A stretch of DNA of 64,000 nt from an uncultured Eggerthellaceae bacterium (GTDB lineage: Bacteria; Actinomycetota; Coriobacteriia; Coriobacteriales; Eggerthellaceae). The notes beneath the pieces are model-generated. The model saw only the letters and a list, made by a program, of their open reading frames with translations. It ran no database searches and was not told where the DNA came from. The position numbers were made by a program, and so were the translations under genes. The stretch covers positions 1 to 64,000 of the forward strand of contig CAIFEB010000001.1 in the NCBI GenBank assembly GCA_903789375.1. The letters are read 5' to 3'. Shown piece after piece: positions 20,111 to 29,514 of this stretch. The stretch's first letter is position 1; every line of letters begins with the position of its first letter.

Positions 20111-20206
20111 GCCCCTGGGATCGAATCTCAGCTGCGAGCTAATGCCCATACATGAAACTTTATGTAAAATGTGAGCATGTCTAAACCGCCCGAAAGGTGA
20201 TCAGCC

Positions 20207-20392
20207 ATGGCCATCATCCGACCCGTGTCCGACCTGCAGCGCAAGGTCGGCGAGCTCACCCGGCTCGCCAAGGAGACGAAAGAGCCCATATACCTCACCA
20301 AGAACGGCGCCGAGCACCTTGTGCTCATCGACTTCGGCGAGTTCGAGCGCCTGGCGAAGCTCGCCGGAAGAAGCGAGGCGAGGCAGCCATGA
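20207..20392 (+). CDS. Orphan Phd/YefM-type antitoxin
   Basis: 61 residues from ATG 20207 (GAAAGGTGATCAGCC upstream). IRPVSDLQRKVGEL and KEPIYLTKNGAEHLVLIDFG are the N-terminal DNA-binding fold of Phd/YefM antitoxins. The usual Doc, RelE or YoeB toxin gene is missing: the stop overlaps the start of hsdR by 4 bp (ATGA). The C-terminal toxin-neutralising tail is shortened to about ten residues. This suggests it works here as a repressor of the restriction operon, like a control protein, rather than as an antitoxin. Confidence 0.7.
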   Translation: MAIIRPVSDLQRKVGELTRLAKETKEPIYLTKNGAEHLVLIDFGEFERLAKLAGRSEARQP

Positions 20393-22755
20393 GCGGAACC
20401 TACGACTACTCATTCGTGAAGATGAACGAGGAGGACACGAAGCTGAAGCTCATCACGCCCGCCGTCGAGAAGGCCGGGTGGAGCAAGATGAGGCAGATGT
20501 TCTGCGAGTACTCCTACACCGACGGGGAGATCATCGTCCGGGGCAAGATGACGACGCGCGGCAAGCGCAAGAAGGTCGACTACCTCCTCATGCACCAGCG
20601 CGACGTCCCCATCGCGGTCATCGAGGCCAAGGACACGCAGCACACGGTCGGGGCGGGCATGCAGCAGGGCATTGGTTACGCCGCGGACCTGCGCGTCCCT
20701 TTCGTCTACAGCTCGAACGGCAAGGGCTTCCTCGAGCACGACATGATGACGGGGGCCGAGAGGCAGCTCCCCATGGACCGGTTCCCGAGCCCGTCCGAGC
20801 TGTGGGCGCGTTACTCGAGGCAGGACGGTCTCACCGGCGAGGGCGAGGAGATTGTCGAGGCCCCCTACTACCACGACTACGGCTCCCTGACGCCGCGCTA
20901 CTACCAGCGAAACGCCGTCAACGAGGCGATCCGGGCAATCGCGCACGGCCAGCGCCGCATCCTGCTCGTCATGGCGACGGGCACCGGAAAGACGTTCACC
21001 GCGTTCCAGCTGGTGCACCGCCTCCGCGAGAGCGGCGCGGTGCGCAAGGTGCTCTACCTCGCAGACCGCAACGTCCTCGTCGACCAGACCATCACCGGCG
21101 ACTTCAAGCCCCTGGAGAAGGTGACCACGAAGGTAAAGGGCCGCACGCTCGACAGCGCCTACGAGGTGTACTTCAGCCTCTACCAGCAGCTCGTGGGCGA
21201 GGACGGCGAGGAGATATTCCGCGCCTTCGACCCGTCGTTCTTCGACCTCGTCATCGTGGACGAGTGCCACCGGGGCTCGGCCAAGGCGGACTCTGCCTGG
21301 CGCAAGATCCTCGAGTACTTCGGCGGCGCCATACAGATCGGCATGACCGCCACCCCCAAGGAAACCGAGGAGGTCTCCACCATCGACTACTTCGGCGAGC
21401 CGGTCTACACCTACAGCCTCAAGCAGGGCATCGAGGACGGCTTCCTCGCCCCCTACAAGGTCATCCGGCCGAAGCTCGACATCGACGTCTACGGCTGGCG
21501 GCCGGCGAAGGGCCAGCTCGACGACAACGGGGAGCCAATCGAGGACCGCGTGTACTCCATCACCGACTTCGACCGCGACATCGTCGTGAGGGAGCGCACG
21601 GAGACCGTCGCCGCCAAGGTCACGGAGTTCCTGAAGGGCACCGACCGCTACGCCAAGACCATCGTGTTCTGCGTCGACATCGACCACGCGGAGCGCATGC
21701 GGCAGGCGCTGGTCAACTGCAACAAGGACATCGTCAGGGACCACCCGACCTACGTCATGCGCATCACCGGCGACAGCGCCGAGGGCAAGGCGCAGCTAGA
21801 CAACTTCATGGACCCGGACGAGAAGCACCCGACCATCGTCACCACCTCGAAGCTGCTCACCACGGGGGTCAACTGCAAGACCTGCAAGGTCATCGTCCTC
21901 GACAACCTCTTCGGCGAGCAGGGCATGACCGAGTTCAAGCAGATCATCGGTCGCGGTACCCGCATCAAGGAGGACTACGGGAAGCTGTACTTCACCATCC
22001 TCGACTTCCGCAACGCGAGCCGGCTCTTCGCCGACCCCGCCTTCGACGGCGAGCCGGTGCAGATCTACGAGCCGCCCGAGGAGGCCCCCATCGTCCCGCC
22101 TGACGAGCCGGACAATTGGCAGGAGCCCGAGGGGGCCTCGCCGGACTTCAGCCCCGAGGGAGATGGCGGCTCCGACGACGCCGGCGGCGACCGCGTCAAG
22201 TACTACGTGCACGGCGTCCCGGTCACCGTGGTCTCGGAGCGCGTCGAGTACTACTCGGACGACGGCGGACTGGTCACCGAGAGCCTCAAGGACTACACGC
22301 GCAGGAACATCCTCGGCCAGTACGACTCCCTCGACCACTTCCTCAAGGCGTGGAACGAGGGGGACCGCAAGCAGGCCATCATCGACGCCCTGCGCGACGA
22401 GGGCGTCTTCCTGGATGCGCTGCGCGAGGAATCTGGCCAGGAGCAGATGAGCGACTTCGACCTCATCTGCCACATCGCCTACGACCAGAAGCCCCTCACG
22501 CGCTCCGAGCGCGCGAACAACGTGAAAAAGAAGGGCTACCTCTACGAGTACAACGAGGTGGCGCGGCGCGTGCTCGATACGCTGCTGGACAAATACGCCA
22601 ACTCAAACCTCGTCGACCTCGCGGACACCCATATCCTCGATCTCGAGGAGTTCCAGGAGTTCGGCAGCCCCATGCGCATCGTGAAGGCGTTCGGTGGCAA
22701 GAAGAAGTACCTCGAGGCCGTGCACGAGCTCGAGCGAGAGCTCTACTCCGCCTAG
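20389..22755 (+). CDS. hsdR: Type I restriction enzyme, R (translocase/nuclease) subunit
   Basis: 788 residues. The N-terminal PD-(D/E)xK nuclease has Asp64, then IEAK (78-81) and QxxxY (93-97). Walker A ATGTGKT (196-202), DECH box (291-294), the TATP motif and QIIGRGTR near the end of the second RecA fold make up the SF2 translocase. The C-terminal about 180 residues bind the methylase. HsdR pulls DNA towards the HsdMS complex and cuts unmethylated DNA at a distance. All motifs are intact. Translation is coupled to the Phd gene, so the antitoxin level is tied to nuclease synthesis. Confidence 0.92.
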   Translation: MSGTYDYSFVKMNEEDTKLKLITPAVEKAGWSKMRQMFCEYSYTDGEIIVRGKMTTRGKRKKVDYLLMHQRDVPIAVIEAKDTQHTVGAGMQQGIGYAADLRVPFVYSSNGKGFLEHDMMTGAERQLPMDRFPSPSELWARYSRQDGLTGEGEEIVEAPYYHDYGSLTPRYYQRNAVNEAIRAIAHGQRRILLVMATGTGKTFTAFQLVHRLRESGAVRKVLYLADRNVLVDQTITGDFKPLEKVTTKVKGRTLDSAYEVYFSLYQQLVGEDGEEIFRAFDPSFFDLVIVDECHRGSAKADSAWRKILEYFGGAIQIGMTATPKETEEVSTIDYFGEPVYTYSLKQGIEDGFLAPYKVIRPKLDIDVYGWRPAKGQLDDNGEPIEDRVYSITDFDRDIVVRERTETVAAKVTEFLKGTDRYAKTIVFCVDIDHAERMRQALVNCNKDIVRDHPTYVMRITGDSAEGKAQLDNFMDPDEKHPTIVTTSKLLTTGVNCKTCKVIVLDNLFGEQGMTEFKQIIGRGTRIKEDYGKLYFTILDFRNASRLFADPAFDGEPVQIYEPPEEAPIVPPDEPDNWQEPEGASPDFSPEGDGGSDDAGGDRVKYYVHGVPVTVVSERVEYYSDDGGLVTESLKDYTRRNILGQYDSLDHFLKAWNEGDRKQAIIDALRDEGVFLDALREESGQEQMSDFDLICHIAYDQKPLTRSERANNVKKKGYLYEYNEVARRVLDTLLDKYANSNLVDLADTHILDLEEFQEFGSPMRIVKAFGGKKKYLEAVHELERELYSA

Positions 22756-22776
22756 GAATCGATAAGGAGAATTTGA

Positions 22777-24255
22777 ATGGCACTTGGCACCCTGGTCAAG
22801 ACCCTGCAGAACATCATGCGCAAGGACGCCGGCATCAACGGCGACGCGCAGCGCATCGAGCAGATGACGTGGATGTTCTTCCTCAAGGTCTACGACGCCA
22901 AGGAGGAGGAGTGGGAGTTTCACGACGACTCCTACGAATCCGTGATTCCCGAAGAGCTGCGCTGGCACAGCTGGGCGGTGGATTCCAAGGACGGAAAGGC
23001 GCCCACCGGCCCCGAGCTCCTCGACTTCGTGAACAACAGGCTGTTCCCCGGTCTGGCTAGTCTCGACCTGCCAGAGGGAGCTCCGCTGTCCCAGGTCGTC
23101 GTGAGGCAGGCGTTCACGGACGCCAACAACTACATGAAGGACGGCGTCCTGCTGCGCCAGGTGGTCAACGCGATCGACGACGCGGTCGACTTCACGGAGT
23201 ACAAGGAGCGCCACGCCTTCGGCGAGATCTACGAGACGATCCTCAAGGACCTGCAGAGCGCCGGCAACGCGGGCGAGTTCTACACGCCCCGCGCCGTCAC
23301 CGACTTCATGGCCAAGATGCTCGACCCCAAGCTGGGCGAGAGCGTCGCGGACTTCGCGTGCGGAACCGGCGGCTTTCTCACCTCGGCGCTCAAGCTCCTC
23401 GAGGCCCAGGTGGAGACGCCCGCCGACCGCGAGGTCTACTCCCAGAGCGTCTACGGCATGGAGAAGAAGCAGCTGCCCTACCTTCTGTGCGTCACCAACA
23501 TGCTGCTCCACGACATCGACCAGCCCAAGATCTTCCACGGAAACTCGCTCGACCGCGACGTACGCGAGTACCGGCACGAGCCCGACGGCCTCTTCGACGT
23601 GGTGCTCATGAACCCGCCCTACGGGGGAAGCGAGAACGACGCCATCAAGAACAACTTCCCCGTGGCGCTGCGCAGCTCCGAGACCGCGGACCTCTTCCTC
23701 GCGCTCATCCTCTACCGGCTGAAGGAGCACGGCCGCGCGGCGGTCATCATCCCCGACGGCTTCCTTTTCGGCACCGACGGGGCGAAGCTCGAGATCAAGC
23801 GGCGCCTGTTGGAAGAGGCGAACCTGCACACCGTCGTGCGCATGCCCCAGAGCGTGTTCGCACCCTACACCTCCATCACCACCAACATCCTGTTCTTCGA
23901 GAACAACGGGCCCTCCGAAGGCGTGTGGTTCTACCGCATGGACATGCCGGAAGGCTACAAGCACTTCTCCAAGACCAAGCCCATCAGGCTGGAGCACTTC
24001 GACCCCGTAATCGAGTGGTGGAACGACCGCAAGAAAATCGAGGAGGATGGCCACCCCAAGGCACATTTCTACACTCCAGAGGAGCTGAAGGAACGCGGCT
24101 ACAATTTCGACCTTTGCGGCTACCCGCATGACGAAGAGGAGATTCTGCCGCCCGACGAGCTCATCAAGAGCTACAAGGCGGAGCGCGAGCGACTCGACGC
24201 GGAAATCGACGCCAAGCTAGGCGAGATTTGCAGCATCCTCGGAATCGAGCTGTAG
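22777..24255 (+). CDS. hsdM: Type I modification methylase, M subunit
   Basis: 492 residues. N-terminal helical HsdM domain (LVKTLQNIMRKDAGINGDAQ) followed by an N6-adenine methyltransferase with AdoMet motif FACGTGGF (193-200) and catalytic NPPYGG (279-284). It forms M2S with HsdS and methylates the two half-sites of the recognition sequence, protecting host DNA. Good ribosome binding site (ATAAGGAGAATTTGA). Separated from hsdS by one base, a normal operon junction. Confidence 0.93.
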   Translation: MALGTLVKTLQNIMRKDAGINGDAQRIEQMTWMFFLKVYDAKEEEWEFHDDSYESVIPEELRWHSWAVDSKDGKAPTGPELLDFVNNRLFPGLASLDLPEGAPLSQVVVRQAFTDANNYMKDGVLLRQVVNAIDDAVDFTEYKERHAFGEIYETILKDLQSAGNAGEFYTPRAVTDFMAKMLDPKLGESVADFACGTGGFLTSALKLLEAQVETPADREVYSQSVYGMEKKQLPYLLCVTNMLLHDIDQPKIFHGNSLDRDVREYRHEPDGLFDVVLMNPPYGGSENDAIKNNFPVALRSSETADLFLALILYRLKEHGRAAVIIPDGFLFGTDGAKLEIKRRLLEEANLHTVVRMPQSVFAPYTSITTNILFFENNGPSEGVWFYRMDMPEGYKHFSKTKPIRLEHFDPVIEWWNDRKKIEEDGHPKAHFYTPEELKERGYNFDLCGYPHDEEEILPPDELIKSYKAERERLDAEIDAKLGEICSILGIEL

Positions 24256-24256
24256 C

Positions 24257-25852
24257 ATGAAGGCACAGGACTTGAAGAACTCCATCCTCCAACTGGCCGT
24301 GCAGGGCAAGCTGGTGCCGCAGGATCCCTCCGACGAGCCTGCGAACGAGCTGCTCGAGCGCATCCGCGAGGAATGCGCGGAGCTCATCGAGCAGAAGAAG
24401 ATCAAGAAGCCCAAGGGCGGAGAGTCGGTCATCTACCGGGGTTCCGATGGGTCCCGCTATGAGAAGCGCGTGGACGCGAAGGGCCACGAGAGTGAGCCGA
24501 TCTGCATCGACGACGAGATCCCGTTCGAGATTCCCGAGGGCTGGGAATGGGCCCGGCTGTCCTCTGTCTGCGTTAAGCTTACCGATGGGTCGCATAATCC
24601 TCCGCCAAAAGCGGTCAATGGTTATCCCGTGATAAGCGCGATGAGCATCGATGGCCGATCAATCAACCTGAACCGCATTAGTCGCTTTGCCGATCGGTCT
24701 GGCTTCGAAAAAGAGAATCCCCGAACGAGGATCAAACGCGGCGACATAATTCTAGGCATTATCGGCGGGTCAATCGGCAATGTTGCGATTTTCGATTACG
24801 ATGAAGCTGTAATTGCTCAACGAAGCGTCGCCATAATCGATTGCGGCGCTCTTAACGAGTATGTCTCCTTCGCGCTGGAGAGCCCCCTTTTCTTTGGATA
24901 CTACAAAAATGCTGCAGGTACAGCCCAGGGCGGAATATATCTTGGGGCATTGGGAGACATGCTTGTACCCATCCCGCCCCTTACTGAACAGCGCCGCATC
25001 GTCGCCAAGGTCGACGAGCTCATGCCGCTGGTCGAGGAGTACGGCGAGCTCGAGGACGCCCGCGAGGCCCTGGACGCCGCGCTGCCCGACCGCCTGCGCA
25101 AATCCGTGCTGCAGCTTGCTGTCGAGGGTAAGCTGGTGCCCCAGGACCCCTCCGACGAGCCCGCAAGTGAGCTGCTCGGGCGCATCCGGAAGGAGCGCGC
25201 CGAGCTCATCGAACAGAGGAAAATCAGGAGGCCCAAGGGTGGCGAGTCGGTCATCTACCGCAAAGGCGGGAGCTGGTACGAGCGCCGCGGCAAATCCGAA
25301 CCCGTCTGCATCGACGACGAGATCCCCTTCGACATCCCGGAGAGCTGGGAGTGGTGCAGGCTATGCGGCCTTGCGGCATTTTCAGGTGGGAAGACCCCAT
25401 CCACTGATGACAAATCCAATTACGAGGAAAACGGCATTCTATGGGTTACTTCCAAAGACATGAAGCGTGATTACATCGACAGCACTCTTATCACGCTATC
25501 TGAGAAGGGGGCCTCTGAACTCACTAGATACAAACCCGGTACGATTTTAATGGTCACGCGGAGCGGGATTTTGAGGCGCATGCTGCCAGTAGCGATGCTG
25601 AAGAGGAGCGCTACGGTTAACCAGGACCAGAAGGCAATCTGTCCCTTTGACTACCGTCTTAGCGAATGGCTACTGCGCTTCTTCAAAGCGAGCGATAGTT
25701 ATATAAGGTCAAACTTTTCAAAAGCGGGAACAACAGTTGAAAGTGTTGTCTTTGACAAGGTCAAGTCTATGCCAATTCCCATCCCTCCCCTCGAAGAGCA
25801 GAAACGCATCGTCGAAAGAGTCGACCAGATAATGAAACTGATAGGAGCCTAG
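24257..25852 (+). CDS. hsdS: Type I specificity subunit with two target-recognition domains
   Basis: 531 residues. Two copies of a conserved segment (LQLAVQGKLVPQDPSDEPAN near 11 and LQLAVEGKLVPQDPSDEPAS near 285, each running to SWEWxRL or GWEWxRL) frame two different recognition domains of about 150 residues (roughly 100-245 and 370-510), each closing with IPPLxEQxRIV. The recognition domains are clearly lower in GC than the repeats, as expected from domain swapping. The subunit defines a bipartite target; the target cannot be read from sequence. No frameshift. Confidence 0.9.
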   Translation: MKAQDLKNSILQLAVQGKLVPQDPSDEPANELLERIREECAELIEQKKIKKPKGGESVIYRGSDGSRYEKRVDAKGHESEPICIDDEIPFEIPEGWEWARLSSVCVKLTDGSHNPPPKAVNGYPVISAMSIDGRSINLNRISRFADRSGFEKENPRTRIKRGDIILGIIGGSIGNVAIFDYDEAVIAQRSVAIIDCGALNEYVSFALESPLFFGYYKNAAGTAQGGIYLGALGDMLVPIPPLTEQRRIVAKVDELMPLVEEYGELEDAREALDAALPDRLRKSVLQLAVEGKLVPQDPSDEPASELLGRIRKERAELIEQRKIRRPKGGESVIYRKGGSWYERRGKSEPVCIDDEIPFDIPESWEWCRLCGLAAFSGGKTPSTDDKSNYEENGILWVTSKDMKRDYIDSTLITLSEKGASELTRYKPGTILMVTRSGILRRMLPVAMLKRSATVNQDQKAICPFDYRLSEWLLRFFKASDSYIRSNFSKAGTTVESVVFDKVKSMPIPIPPLEEQKRIVERVDQIMKLIGA

Positions 25853-25855
25853 CGC

Positions 25856-27634
25856 ATGGGCAAGGAACTGTTCGACAACATCCCCAGCAAGGTCGAGGAC
25901 CTACTCCGCGCCGTGGAGCTGGGGAAAATCGGCCTCCCCGATCTGCAGAGGCCCTTTGTCTGGCCCGACAGCAAGGTGAGGAACCTCCTCGACTCGATGC
26001 TGAAGGGCTATCCCATCGGCTACATCATGCTCTGGTCGTCGCCGGACGAATACGGCAACACCAAGCAGATCGGCGGCAACGAGAAGACCTACAAGGAGCC
26101 CGACGACCTGGTCATCGACGGCCAGCAGAGACTCACGGCCCTGCTGGCCGCGCTCCATGGGACAAGGGTCCGGGACAAGAACTACCGGGAGCGTCCGATA
26201 AGAATCTCGTTCAACCCGCTCACCAGGGAGTTCGCTGTCTGGACTCAGGCGTTCGAGAGGAACACGGAGTGGATCAGCTCCGTGAGCTCGGTGTTCGAGG
26301 CGGACAGGGACCACTCCGTGTCGAAGTTCCGCAAGGCCTTCATCAGGCAGGCCAACGAGGGGCGGGAGAGGAACGGCAGGCACGCTCTGACCGACGAGGA
26401 GGAGGACCTGATCGAGGAGAACCTCAACGACCTCCTCAACCTGGGGATATACACGCTCCCAACGTTGAAGATCAACTCGAAAGCCGACGAGGAGGACGTG
26501 GCGGAGATCTTCGTGCGCGTGAACTCCGGCGGGACCAAGCTCACCGAGAAGAACTTCATCGAGACCCTGCTGGCGGTGTTCGACAACGACGTTCACGCGC
26601 GCATAGACAGGTTCTGCGCGGAGTCCCGCGTGCCGAAGGACGGGACCGCCTACAACCAGATCATCGAAGTCGACCCGTCGCACCTAATCAGGATTGCCGT
26701 CGGCGTCGGGTTCAGGCGCGCCCGTCTCAAGTACGCCTACATGCTCCTGAGGGGCAAGGATCTGAAGACCGGGGCCACCTCGGCCAAGACGCGCGAGGAG
26801 AACCTCGGAAAGTTCAAGGCCGCCCTCGACCTCGCCCTTAACCTTAACAACTGGCACTCCTTTCTCAACCTGTTCGGCAAGGCGGGATACCTAAGAGGGA
26901 GCATCGTCGCCTCGACCAACGCGGTGGTATTCAGCTACGTCCTGTACCTCATCGGCAAGTACGACTACAAAGTGCCGCCGTTCGAGCTGAACAAGATCAT
27001 CACCAAGTGGATCTTCATGGCCACCATAACCGGTTTCTACACCGGATCGACCGAGTCTGAGGTCGAGAAGCAGTTCGCCGATCTGCGGGAGGTGACAACG
27101 GCGGAAGGCTTCGTGTCCTACCTGGAATCCGCCATCGCGACCAGGTTCACGGACGACTTCTTCGCATACACCCTGCCGAGCAGCCTCGAGGGTTCGTCGG
27201 CAAACTCGCCGTCGTGGTTCGGCTACGTCGCCTCGCTCATCGTTCTGGGCACGCCTATGCTGTTCAGCACGACGCCGCTTGCCCAGTACTTCGCCATCGG
27301 CACGAGCGGGAAGAAGAACGCCATCGACAAGCACCATATCTTCCCGAAGAATTACCTGACGAAGATAGGCTACGACAACGACCGCGAAAGAAACCAGATA
27401 GCCAACTTCACATACCTCGACTACAACACCAACATCGAGATCGGCGACAAGGCCCCAGCCGAATACGTCTCCGCTTACAGGCAAAAGCTCGGCGAAGAGG
27501 GATATGCGAAATCCTGCAGGGACAATGCACTCCCCCTCGATTTCGAGAACCTCGGATACCCGGACTTCCTCGCTCAAAGAAGGACGCTCATGGCAGGCGT
27601 CGTGAAGAAGGCATACGAAAAGCTTTGTGAGTAA
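25856..27634 (+). CDS. Full-length DUF262-HNH protein (GmrSD-like)
   Basis: 592 residues. DUF262 domain: LPDLQRPFVW (27-36) and IDGQQRLT (87-94). Residues about 490-525 carry DKHHIFPKNYL and, about 20 residues on, an Asn in a YLDYNTNIEIGDKAP segment, an HNH/DUF1524-type nuclease. Such proteins are NTP-dependent type IV enzymes that cut modified DNA. It starts 3 bp after hsdS, so it is made with the type I enzyme: one module cuts unmodified DNA and the other would cut modified phage DNA. It is the full-length counterpart of the truncated DUF262 genes at 1.7-3.8 kb but only distantly similar. Confidence 0.8.
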   Translation: MGKELFDNIPSKVEDLLRAVELGKIGLPDLQRPFVWPDSKVRNLLDSMLKGYPIGYIMLWSSPDEYGNTKQIGGNEKTYKEPDDLVIDGQQRLTALLAALHGTRVRDKNYRERPIRISFNPLTREFAVWTQAFERNTEWISSVSSVFEADRDHSVSKFRKAFIRQANEGRERNGRHALTDEEEDLIEENLNDLLNLGIYTLPTLKINSKADEEDVAEIFVRVNSGGTKLTEKNFIETLLAVFDNDVHARIDRFCAESRVPKDGTAYNQIIEVDPSHLIRIAVGVGFRRARLKYAYMLLRGKDLKTGATSAKTREENLGKFKAALDLALNLNNWHSFLNLFGKAGYLRGSIVASTNAVVFSYVLYLIGKYDYKVPPFELNKIITKWIFMATITGFYTGSTESEVEKQFADLREVTTAEGFVSYLESAIATRFTDDFFAYTLPSSLEGSSANSPSWFGYVASLIVLGTPMLFSTTPLAQYFAIGTSGKKNAIDKHHIFPKNYLTKIGYDNDRERNQIANFTYLDYNTNIEIGDKAPAEYVSAYRQKLGEEGYAKSCRDNALPLDFENLGYPDFLAQRRTLMAGVVKKAYEKLCE

Positions 27635-27659
27635 TGCTTAAAGTCTGTTGCCCCGTTTC

Positions 27660-27688
27660 TGGTTCCCAGTTTCCATAGCTGGTTCCCA
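27660..27688. other. Arm-site pair at the guaA-proximal island end
   Basis: TGGTTCCCA occurs at 27660-27668 and 27680-27688, the inverted form of TGGGAACCA seen at 14382-14401 and 10682-10690. Opposite orientation at opposite ends, inside the cores, is what paired integrase arm sites look like. Confidence 0.6.
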
Positions 27689-27762
27689 AACGGTTCCGAA
27701 ATAGGCCAAAGAGCCGGGAGCACCATAAGGACGCGGGCGCACGCACGCGCACCCAAACAAGG

Positions 27763-27803
27763 AAGCGGCTAGGTAGAGACGTTCATCCACCTAGCCGCTT
27801 TCG
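27763..27803 (+). terminator. Terminator of the restriction operon
   Basis: A 12-bp perfect stem AAGCGGCTAGGT/ACCTAGCCGCTT (27763-27774, 27789-27800) followed by TTTCG. It lies 129 bp past the DUF262-HNH stop; the rest of 27635-27921 carries arm sites and no gene. Confidence 0.65.
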
Positions 27804-27921
27804 CTATCTGAACTGCAGTTATCAGCCTGCTTGCCCTTGTCCTGCAAAAGCTGATGCCATTGCAGAGCGCCTAGAAGCAGCTCGAATCAAGTAGGACAAC
27901 CGATACACTTTTTACTGCATA

Positions 27922-29514
27922 TCATTCCCACTCAATCGTCGCGGGCGGCTTGGACGTGATGTCGTACGCCACGCGGTTCACGCCGGGAACCTCGGCCACG
28001 ATGCGGCTCGAGATGCGAGCGAGCACCTCGTAGGGGAGTTTCGCCCAGTCGGCCGTCATAGCGTCGGAGCTCTCAACGGCGCGCACGATGATGGGCCGCG
28101 CGTATGTGCGCTCGTCGCCCATGACGCCCACGCTTCTGATGTCGGGCAGCACGGCGAAGTACTGCCAGCAGCTGTGGGCGCTGTTGCGCTCGCCGGTCTC
28201 CTCGAACAGCTTCGCGTTGTACGCGTCAAGCTCCTCGCGCACGATGGCGTCGGCGTTCTTCAGGATGCCAAGCTTTTCGGGCGTCACCGATCCGATGATG
28301 CGAATGGCAAGCCCCGGGCCGGGGAAGGGCTGGCGGTAGACGATGTGGTCGGGCAGGCCGAGCGCCGTGCCAAGCGCGCGCACCTCGTCCTTGAAGAAGT
28401 GGTCGAGCGGCTCGATCAAATCGAAGCTCACGCCGTCGGGGAACGGGATCAGGTTGTGATGGCTCTTGATGGTGGATGCCTTGCCGCCGGTCTTGCGCGC
28501 GCCCGACTCGATGATGTCGGGGTAGATGGTGCCCTGGGCCAGGTACTTCACGCCGTCGAGCTTCTGCGCCACGGCGAAGAACTCCTTCCAGAACTGCGTG
28601 CCGATGATCTGGCGCTTGCGCTCGGGCTCCGTCACGCCGTCGAGCAGCTTCGCGTAGCGCTCCGCGGCGTGCACGTGGATGAAGTCGACGTCGAACTGCT
28701 TGGTGAATACCTCTTCGACCTGCTCGGGCTCGTCTTTGCGCAGCATGCCGTGGTTCACGAACACGCAGGTCACCTGCTTGCCGATGGCGCGGCTCATCAA
28801 CGCCGCGACGACGCTCGAATCAACGCCGCCCGAAAGCGCCAAGATCACGCGGTCGTCTCCGACCTTCTGGCGGATGGCGGACACCATGCGCTCGACTAGG
28901 TTGTCCATCGACCAGTCAGCCTCAAGACCGCAGATCTTGAACAGGAAGTTGGACAGCATGTCGTTTCCGTTGGGGGTGTGGCGCACCTCGGGGTGGAACT
29001 GCGTGGCGTAGAGCTTGCGCTCGGGGCATTCCATCGAGGCAACGGGGCACACGTCGGTATGCGAAGTGACGACGAATCCCGCGGGAACCTCGGACACGGC
29101 GTCGCGATGGCTCATCCACACGGTCTGCTCGTCGGGCGTGCCGTCGAGCAGCTGGCTTTCGCCTTGGCGGGTGAGCGGGGCGGGGCCGTATTCGCCCTTC
29201 TCGGTGTGGCCGACGGTGCCGCCGAGAGTGACGGCCATGATCTGCTGGCCGTAACAGAACCCGAGCACCGGCACGCCCAACTCGAGCACACCCGGGTCGA
29301 TCTTCGGGGCGTCCTCTGCGTACACGCTGGCCGGGCCGCCTGAAAGGATGACGGCCGACGGCTTCAGCGCGGCGAGCTCGTCGGCCGAGATGTCGCAGGG
29401 GACGATCTCCGAATAGACGTGCAGGTCGCGCACGCGACGTGCGATGAGCTGGCCGTACTGGGCGCCGAAGTCCAAGACGACGACCTTCTGGTCGGAAGTG
29501 GCGGTGGTGTTCAC
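27922..29514 (-). CDS. guaA: GMP synthase (glutamine-hydrolysing)
   Basis: 530 residues from GTG 29514, chosen because AAAGGGA lies 7 bp upstream; ATG 29538 has no ribosome binding site. Converts XMP, ATP and glutamine to GMP. The class I glutamine amidotransferase domain has Cys87 (FCYGQQ) and His174/Glu176 (FHPEV); the ATP-pyrophosphatase loop is LSGGVDSS (about 227-234), followed by the dimerisation domain ending TIEWE. Length is normal. Its last codons are the attachment site for the islands to the left. Confidence 0.97.
   Translation of the reverse strand: MNTTATSDQKVVVLDFGAQYGQLIARRVRDLHVYSEIVPCDISADELAALKPSAVILSGGPASVYAEDAPKIDPGVLELGVPVLGFCYGQQIMAVTLGGTVGHTEKGEYGPAPLTRQGESQLLDGTPDEQTVWMSHRDAVSEVPAGFVVTSHTDVCPVASMECPERKLYATQFHPEVRHTPNGNDMLSNFLFKICGLEADWSMDNLVERMVSAIRQKVGDDRVILALSGGVDSSVVAALMSRAIGKQVTCVFVNHGMLRKDEPEQVEEVFTKQFDVDFIHVHAAERYAKLLDGVTEPERKRQIIGTQFWKEFFAVAQKLDGVKYLAQGTIYPDIIESGARKTGGKASTIKSHHNLIPFPDGVSFDLIEPLDHFFKDEVRALGTALGLPDHIVYRQPFPGPGLAIRIIGSVTPEKLGILKNADAIVREELDAYNAKLFEETGERNSAHSCWQYFAVLPDIRSVGVMGDERTYARPIIVRAVESSDAMTADWAKLPYEVLARISSRIVAEVPGVNRVAYDITSKPPATIEWE
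27924..27940. other. Attachment core in the guaA 3' end
   Basis: ATTCCCACTCAATCGTC encodes the last codons of GuaA (TIEWE) on the minus strand and is repeated, with changes, at 7244, 10579 and 14290. The gene stays intact because the island restores the terminal codons. Confidence 0.65.

Follow-up and report, generated by a model that had tools for sequence, protein, structure and literature searches.

Little is known about how defence operons are regulated, and the small regulators encoded by their first genes are easily dismissed as 'orphan antitoxins'. The C (controller) proteins of type II restriction systems adopt an HTH fold and control enzyme and methylase separately. In Gammaproteobacteria, type I restriction islands are repressed by RptR, an all-alpha protein without kinship to Phd/YefM that is encoded by the small first gene of the restriction operon, binds TAGCTA repeats, has palindromes over the -10 box and also occurs ahead of other modules (PMC12255303). 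BrxR/CapW repressors combine an HTH with a WYL domain and act as autorepressors upstream of BREX and other defence systems (PMC9122601). Phd and YefM, the antitoxins of Phd-Doc and YefM-YoeB, carry an N-terminal DNA-binding domain and are autorepressors with palindromic operators at their promoters, one YefM operator overlapping the -10 region (PMC4803016).

We analysed a 64,000-nucleotide stretch of DNA from an uncultured Eggerthellaceae bacterium (the window), in which a short, toxinless Phd/YefM protein is encoded directly ahead of a type I restriction operon (Table 1). With RptR, this Phd shares (i) the position as small first gene, (ii) a palindrome over the -10 box and (iii) the occurrence ahead of other modules; unlike RptR, its clade heads BREX and Hma operons too, and as a Phd/YefM protein it falls outside the RptR family, which is characterized by the all-alpha fold and TAGCTA sites. 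Its proposed role is that of BrxR/CapW, which are larger and of another fold, the Phd measuring only ~61 aa. Like the C proteins, it would be a short co-operonic regulator of restriction, and it differs from YefM-YoeB and Phd-Doc in heading a defence operon without a toxin gene and without the C-terminal toxin-binding part. We consider it probable, at roughly three chances in four, that a Phd/YefM antitoxin was pared to the domain for DNA binding and dimerisation and put to new use as a local, dedicated autorepressor. Searches of openly accessible papers, among which most subscription papers are missing, yielded no account of Phd regulating type I restriction, BREX or Hma, and neither YefM nor ribbon-helix-helix regulators were matched in the text of a recent survey of BREX diversity (PMC12839542).

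Table 1 Features of the phd-hsdR locus (positions in the window)
Feature	Position	Strand	Basis and remarks
Predicted operator palindrome, TACAT-N8-ATGTA	20149..20166	.	Sequence; 41-58 bp before phd
-10-like box, TAAAAT	20165..20170	+	Sequence; overlaps the right arm of the palindrome
Shine-Dalgarno-like GAAAGG before phd	20192..20197	+	Sequence; GAAAGG similar in L065, L122 and L064
phd, short toxinless Phd/YefM protein, 61 aa	20207..20392	+	Open reading frame, profile matches
hsdR, EcoAI/FtnUII family	20389..22755 (alternative start 20422)	+	NF046051, 1128.6 bits
hsdM	22777..24255	+	Profile matches
hsdS	24257..25852	+	Profile matches
GmrSD_N (DUF262) type IV restriction-like gene, fifth in the run	25856..27634	+	Profile match

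The five genes phd, hsdR, hsdM, hsdS and the GmrSD_N gene form a run on the same strand, and the three hsd genes together constitute a type I restriction operon of the EcoAI family. The initial annotation had described phd as overlapping hsdR by 4 bp. This ATGA overlap (20389-20392) exists if HsdR starts at its first ATG. The NF046051 family model aligns from HsdR residue 12, and the N-terminus of HsdR relatives reads 'MNESDTRLKL', so that a start at Met12 (20422), 29 bases past the phd stop codon, is possible, in which case the overlap is lost. Overlapping stop and start codons of phd and the next gene are also found at the BREX and Hma loci of class-mates (L065, L066, L067 and L122). Behind hsdS, the GmrSD_N gene is retained in the related operon of Pseudoclavibacter caeni (L031); its presence as fifth gene hints that type I and type IV defence are combined in one cassette.

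The phd open reading frame encodes MAIIRPVSDLQRKVGELTRLAKETKEPIYLTKNGAEHLVLIDFGEFERLAKLAGRSEARQP, which scores above the family cut-offs of both PF02604 (34.4 bits versus 29.8) and TIGR01552 (30 bits versus 20.8). It is the single PF02604 match in the whole 2.43-Mb genome. Its 61 residues compare with 89-136 aa in 67 full-length Phd proteins, almost all of which come from the same bacterial class, and the alignment to the solved homologue 3g5o covers the first ~50 positions only. The structure predicted from single-sequence input has low confidence (pLDDT 65), with a helix-strand-strand-helix order that is compatible with the Phd N-domain; our conclusions do not draw on it. Both components that would define a type II toxin-antitoxin pair are absent from the locus: the protein has no C-terminal toxin-neutralising region, and the adjoining gene is hsdR instead of a toxin gene. 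Our toxin scan, which covered the ParE/RelE families, returned no match within the 64-kb window, and the matches elsewhere in the genome are confined to another contig (C3). The short Phd/YefM protein and the reduced tail of the initial annotation are borne out, and its absent toxin gene is supported by the adjoining genes and, for ParE/RelE, by the genome-wide scan.

We searched whole genomes of the class (400 genomes), of three families of one order and of the phylum (397 genomes) for related proteins. The short Phd proteins, 60-64 aa in length, form a single clade (tree support 100/90, recovered in 100% of bootstraps) in a tree of 71 N-terminal domains and 53 columns, branching within the short group being weak. 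A profile built from six of the short sequences separates clade members (117-125 bits) from all other Phd proteins (at most ~71 bits), and the clade alignment contains 22 invariant columns, with conserved columns ending at residue 42. None of the 397 phylum genomes added a member from outside the class, P. caeni, reached via HsdR, being the exception; none was found on plasmids or viral contigs. At all nine loci phd lies directly ahead of a defence operon, and these operons are of four kinds: (i) EcoAI type I restriction with hsdR first (the window and L031 of P. caeni); (ii) a type I operon with the methyltransferase gene (MTase_I/hsdM) first, split by a transposase gene (L063 and L064); (iii) Hma (L065, with HmaA at 1550 bits and HmaB and HmaC by profile, and L068 and L122, assigned by the same gene order and sequence as L065); and (iv) BREX type 1 (L066 and L067, with BrxA, BrxB and BrxC by profile and further downstream genes read from sequence).

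Short phd genes are an optional part of these operons. Among the genomes of the class, 2 of the 15 with brxA have one and 13 lack it; for hmaA, 2 of 18 have one and 16 lack it. Adjacency of phd and hsdR, which was to be surveyed as a conserved pair, is not conserved: among the eight HsdR loci most similar to that of the window it is seen once, in what is the same cassette (95% identity). Phd was likewise absent from seven annotated EcoAI loci on plasmids. The window and P. caeni, which belongs to a different class of Actinomycetota, share blocks of 85-94% identity (window 20138-28131, L031 5750-13748), and this stretch runs from the phd promoter through the restriction operon into the 3' end of guaA, hsdS being a poorer match than the rest. 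Since the shared stretch begins at the phd promoter and spans the operon, Phd and its promoter travel together with the restriction operon. The GC content of P. caeni is 60% within the shared stretch versus 71% in its flank. At L063 and L064, which lie in different bacterial families, the phd-hsdM module is identical and the same IS256-like transposase is inserted in hsdM, suggesting that the operon was already broken when it was transferred, very recently.

Upstream of phd lies a palindrome at the promoter, as in autoregulated Phd/YefM operons. The exact TACAT-N8-ATGTA pattern has one copy in the 2.43-Mb genome (pattern search). Both arms are exact in the window, L031, L063/L064 and L066, where the palindrome begins 57-62 bp upstream of the start codon, and by chance the 10-base pattern is expected 0.00005-0.00015 times per shuffled promoter. 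The promoters of the window and L064 are related by descent and therefore do not count as independent evidence for the operator. The same pattern precedes 8 of the 67 full-length phd genes; the three downstream partners of full-length phd genes that we sampled show weak likeness to ParE/RelE toxins. Ahead of the Hma members and L067 the full palindrome is missing, and the ATGTA half-site or altered spacing found there indicates that recognition may have diverged. A consensus-based promoter scan, for which a -35 element is required, detected no promoter at the predicted operator, where the -35 is poor.

For the short Phd, we infer dimer binding, repression and a physiological role from sequence. 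A predicted dimer would bind TACAT-N8-ATGTA over the -10 box and thereby lower transcription of phd and the downstream restriction operon. In a newly entered cell, the operon would at first be unrepressed for a short while, allowing a burst of expression, after which accumulating repressor would set a low steady level; promoter and phd would together act as a portable control module ahead of type I restriction, BREX and Hma operons. The initial annotation had assumed that the enzyme is restrained on entry. This does not follow for a repressor encoded first in its own operon, which leaves the operon open initially and lowers its expression later. It had further offered Phd either as a control protein or as the partner of HsdR acting as 'toxin'. 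The control half is favoured by the four operon kinds and by the operator over the promoter in several of them. As for the other half, neutralisation of HsdR, or of whichever protein is encoded first downstream, through direct contact would accord with the harm that type I restriction enzymes can do to their host and with co-expression by translational overlap. The same clade, however, precedes HsdM, BrxA and HmaA, none of which is a relative of HsdR; these proteins differ in kind to an extent that makes neutralisation unlikely as a common function. The conserved columns moreover stop at residue 42 without a toxin-binding tail, and seven close HsdR relatives do without Phd, and we regard a toxin role of HsdR as very improbable. 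Because the partners are non-homologous, the function that the loci have in common must reside in Phd and its promoter.

A short tail would also befit an antitoxin without function that outlived its decayed toxin-antitoxin pair, lost its toxin-binding part and came to lie before hsdR by chance, and the truncation of the L068 copy to 32 aa and the nearest hsdR loci without phd point the same way. Against such a remnant, which we consider quite unlikely, stand the near-constant 60-64 aa across nine loci and four operon types, the 22 invariant columns, the start/stop overlap and the operator; random decay, furthermore, would not put the gene at the head of a defence operon each time. An activator or timing protein that, like C proteins, delays the restriction enzyme behind the methyltransferase is unlikely: all four partner systems contain a methyltransferase, so timing would matter, and C proteins are small co-operonic genes as well, but Phd stands ahead of all genes of the operon, the methyltransferase among them, so that this promoter alone cannot separate methyltransferase from enzyme, and the predicted site overlaps the -10 box, as is typical of repressors. 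Extremely improbable, finally, is an antitoxin directed at a toxin elsewhere in the cell, or a decoy for a phage factor, with repression as a secondary activity. ParE/RelE genes do occur on contig C3, and antitoxins can be promiscuous (PMC10440598), but the half of the protein that would bind a toxin is missing.

The proposed local autorepressor derived from Phd/YefM would tie toxin-antitoxin evolution to how restriction, BREX and Hma systems are controlled, and it comes with a testable operator and a defined protein clade. Where Phd 'antitoxins' are counted near defence systems, toxin-antitoxin content may be overstated. Whether the toxinless clade serves modification-dependent defence operons at large as an interchangeable control module is evenly balanced in our view; if it does, antitoxin DNA-binding domains would be routinely recruited as defence regulators. 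We see equal odds for and against the clade filling a slot that is held elsewhere by ribbon-helix-helix or HTH mini-proteins. Toxin-less ribbon-helix-helix-like proteins of ~66-72 aa, called from weak matches below the Pfam cut-offs, precede brxA at L124, L125, L128, L129 and L130, and another such protein precedes hsdR at L036, all of these being operons of the class. On plasmids of Enterococcus lactis and Vibrio campbellii, the EcoAI hsdR gene is preceded by an annotated HTH protein. Ribbon-helix-helix-like and HTH proteins in the same place suggest that the regulator slot at the operon head is filled by differing folds. At L032, L034, L036 and L038, a tyrosine recombinase gene in opposing orientation lies behind hsdS, in some cases with a reversed hsdS fragment beyond, an arrangement that looks like a phase-variable specificity locus.
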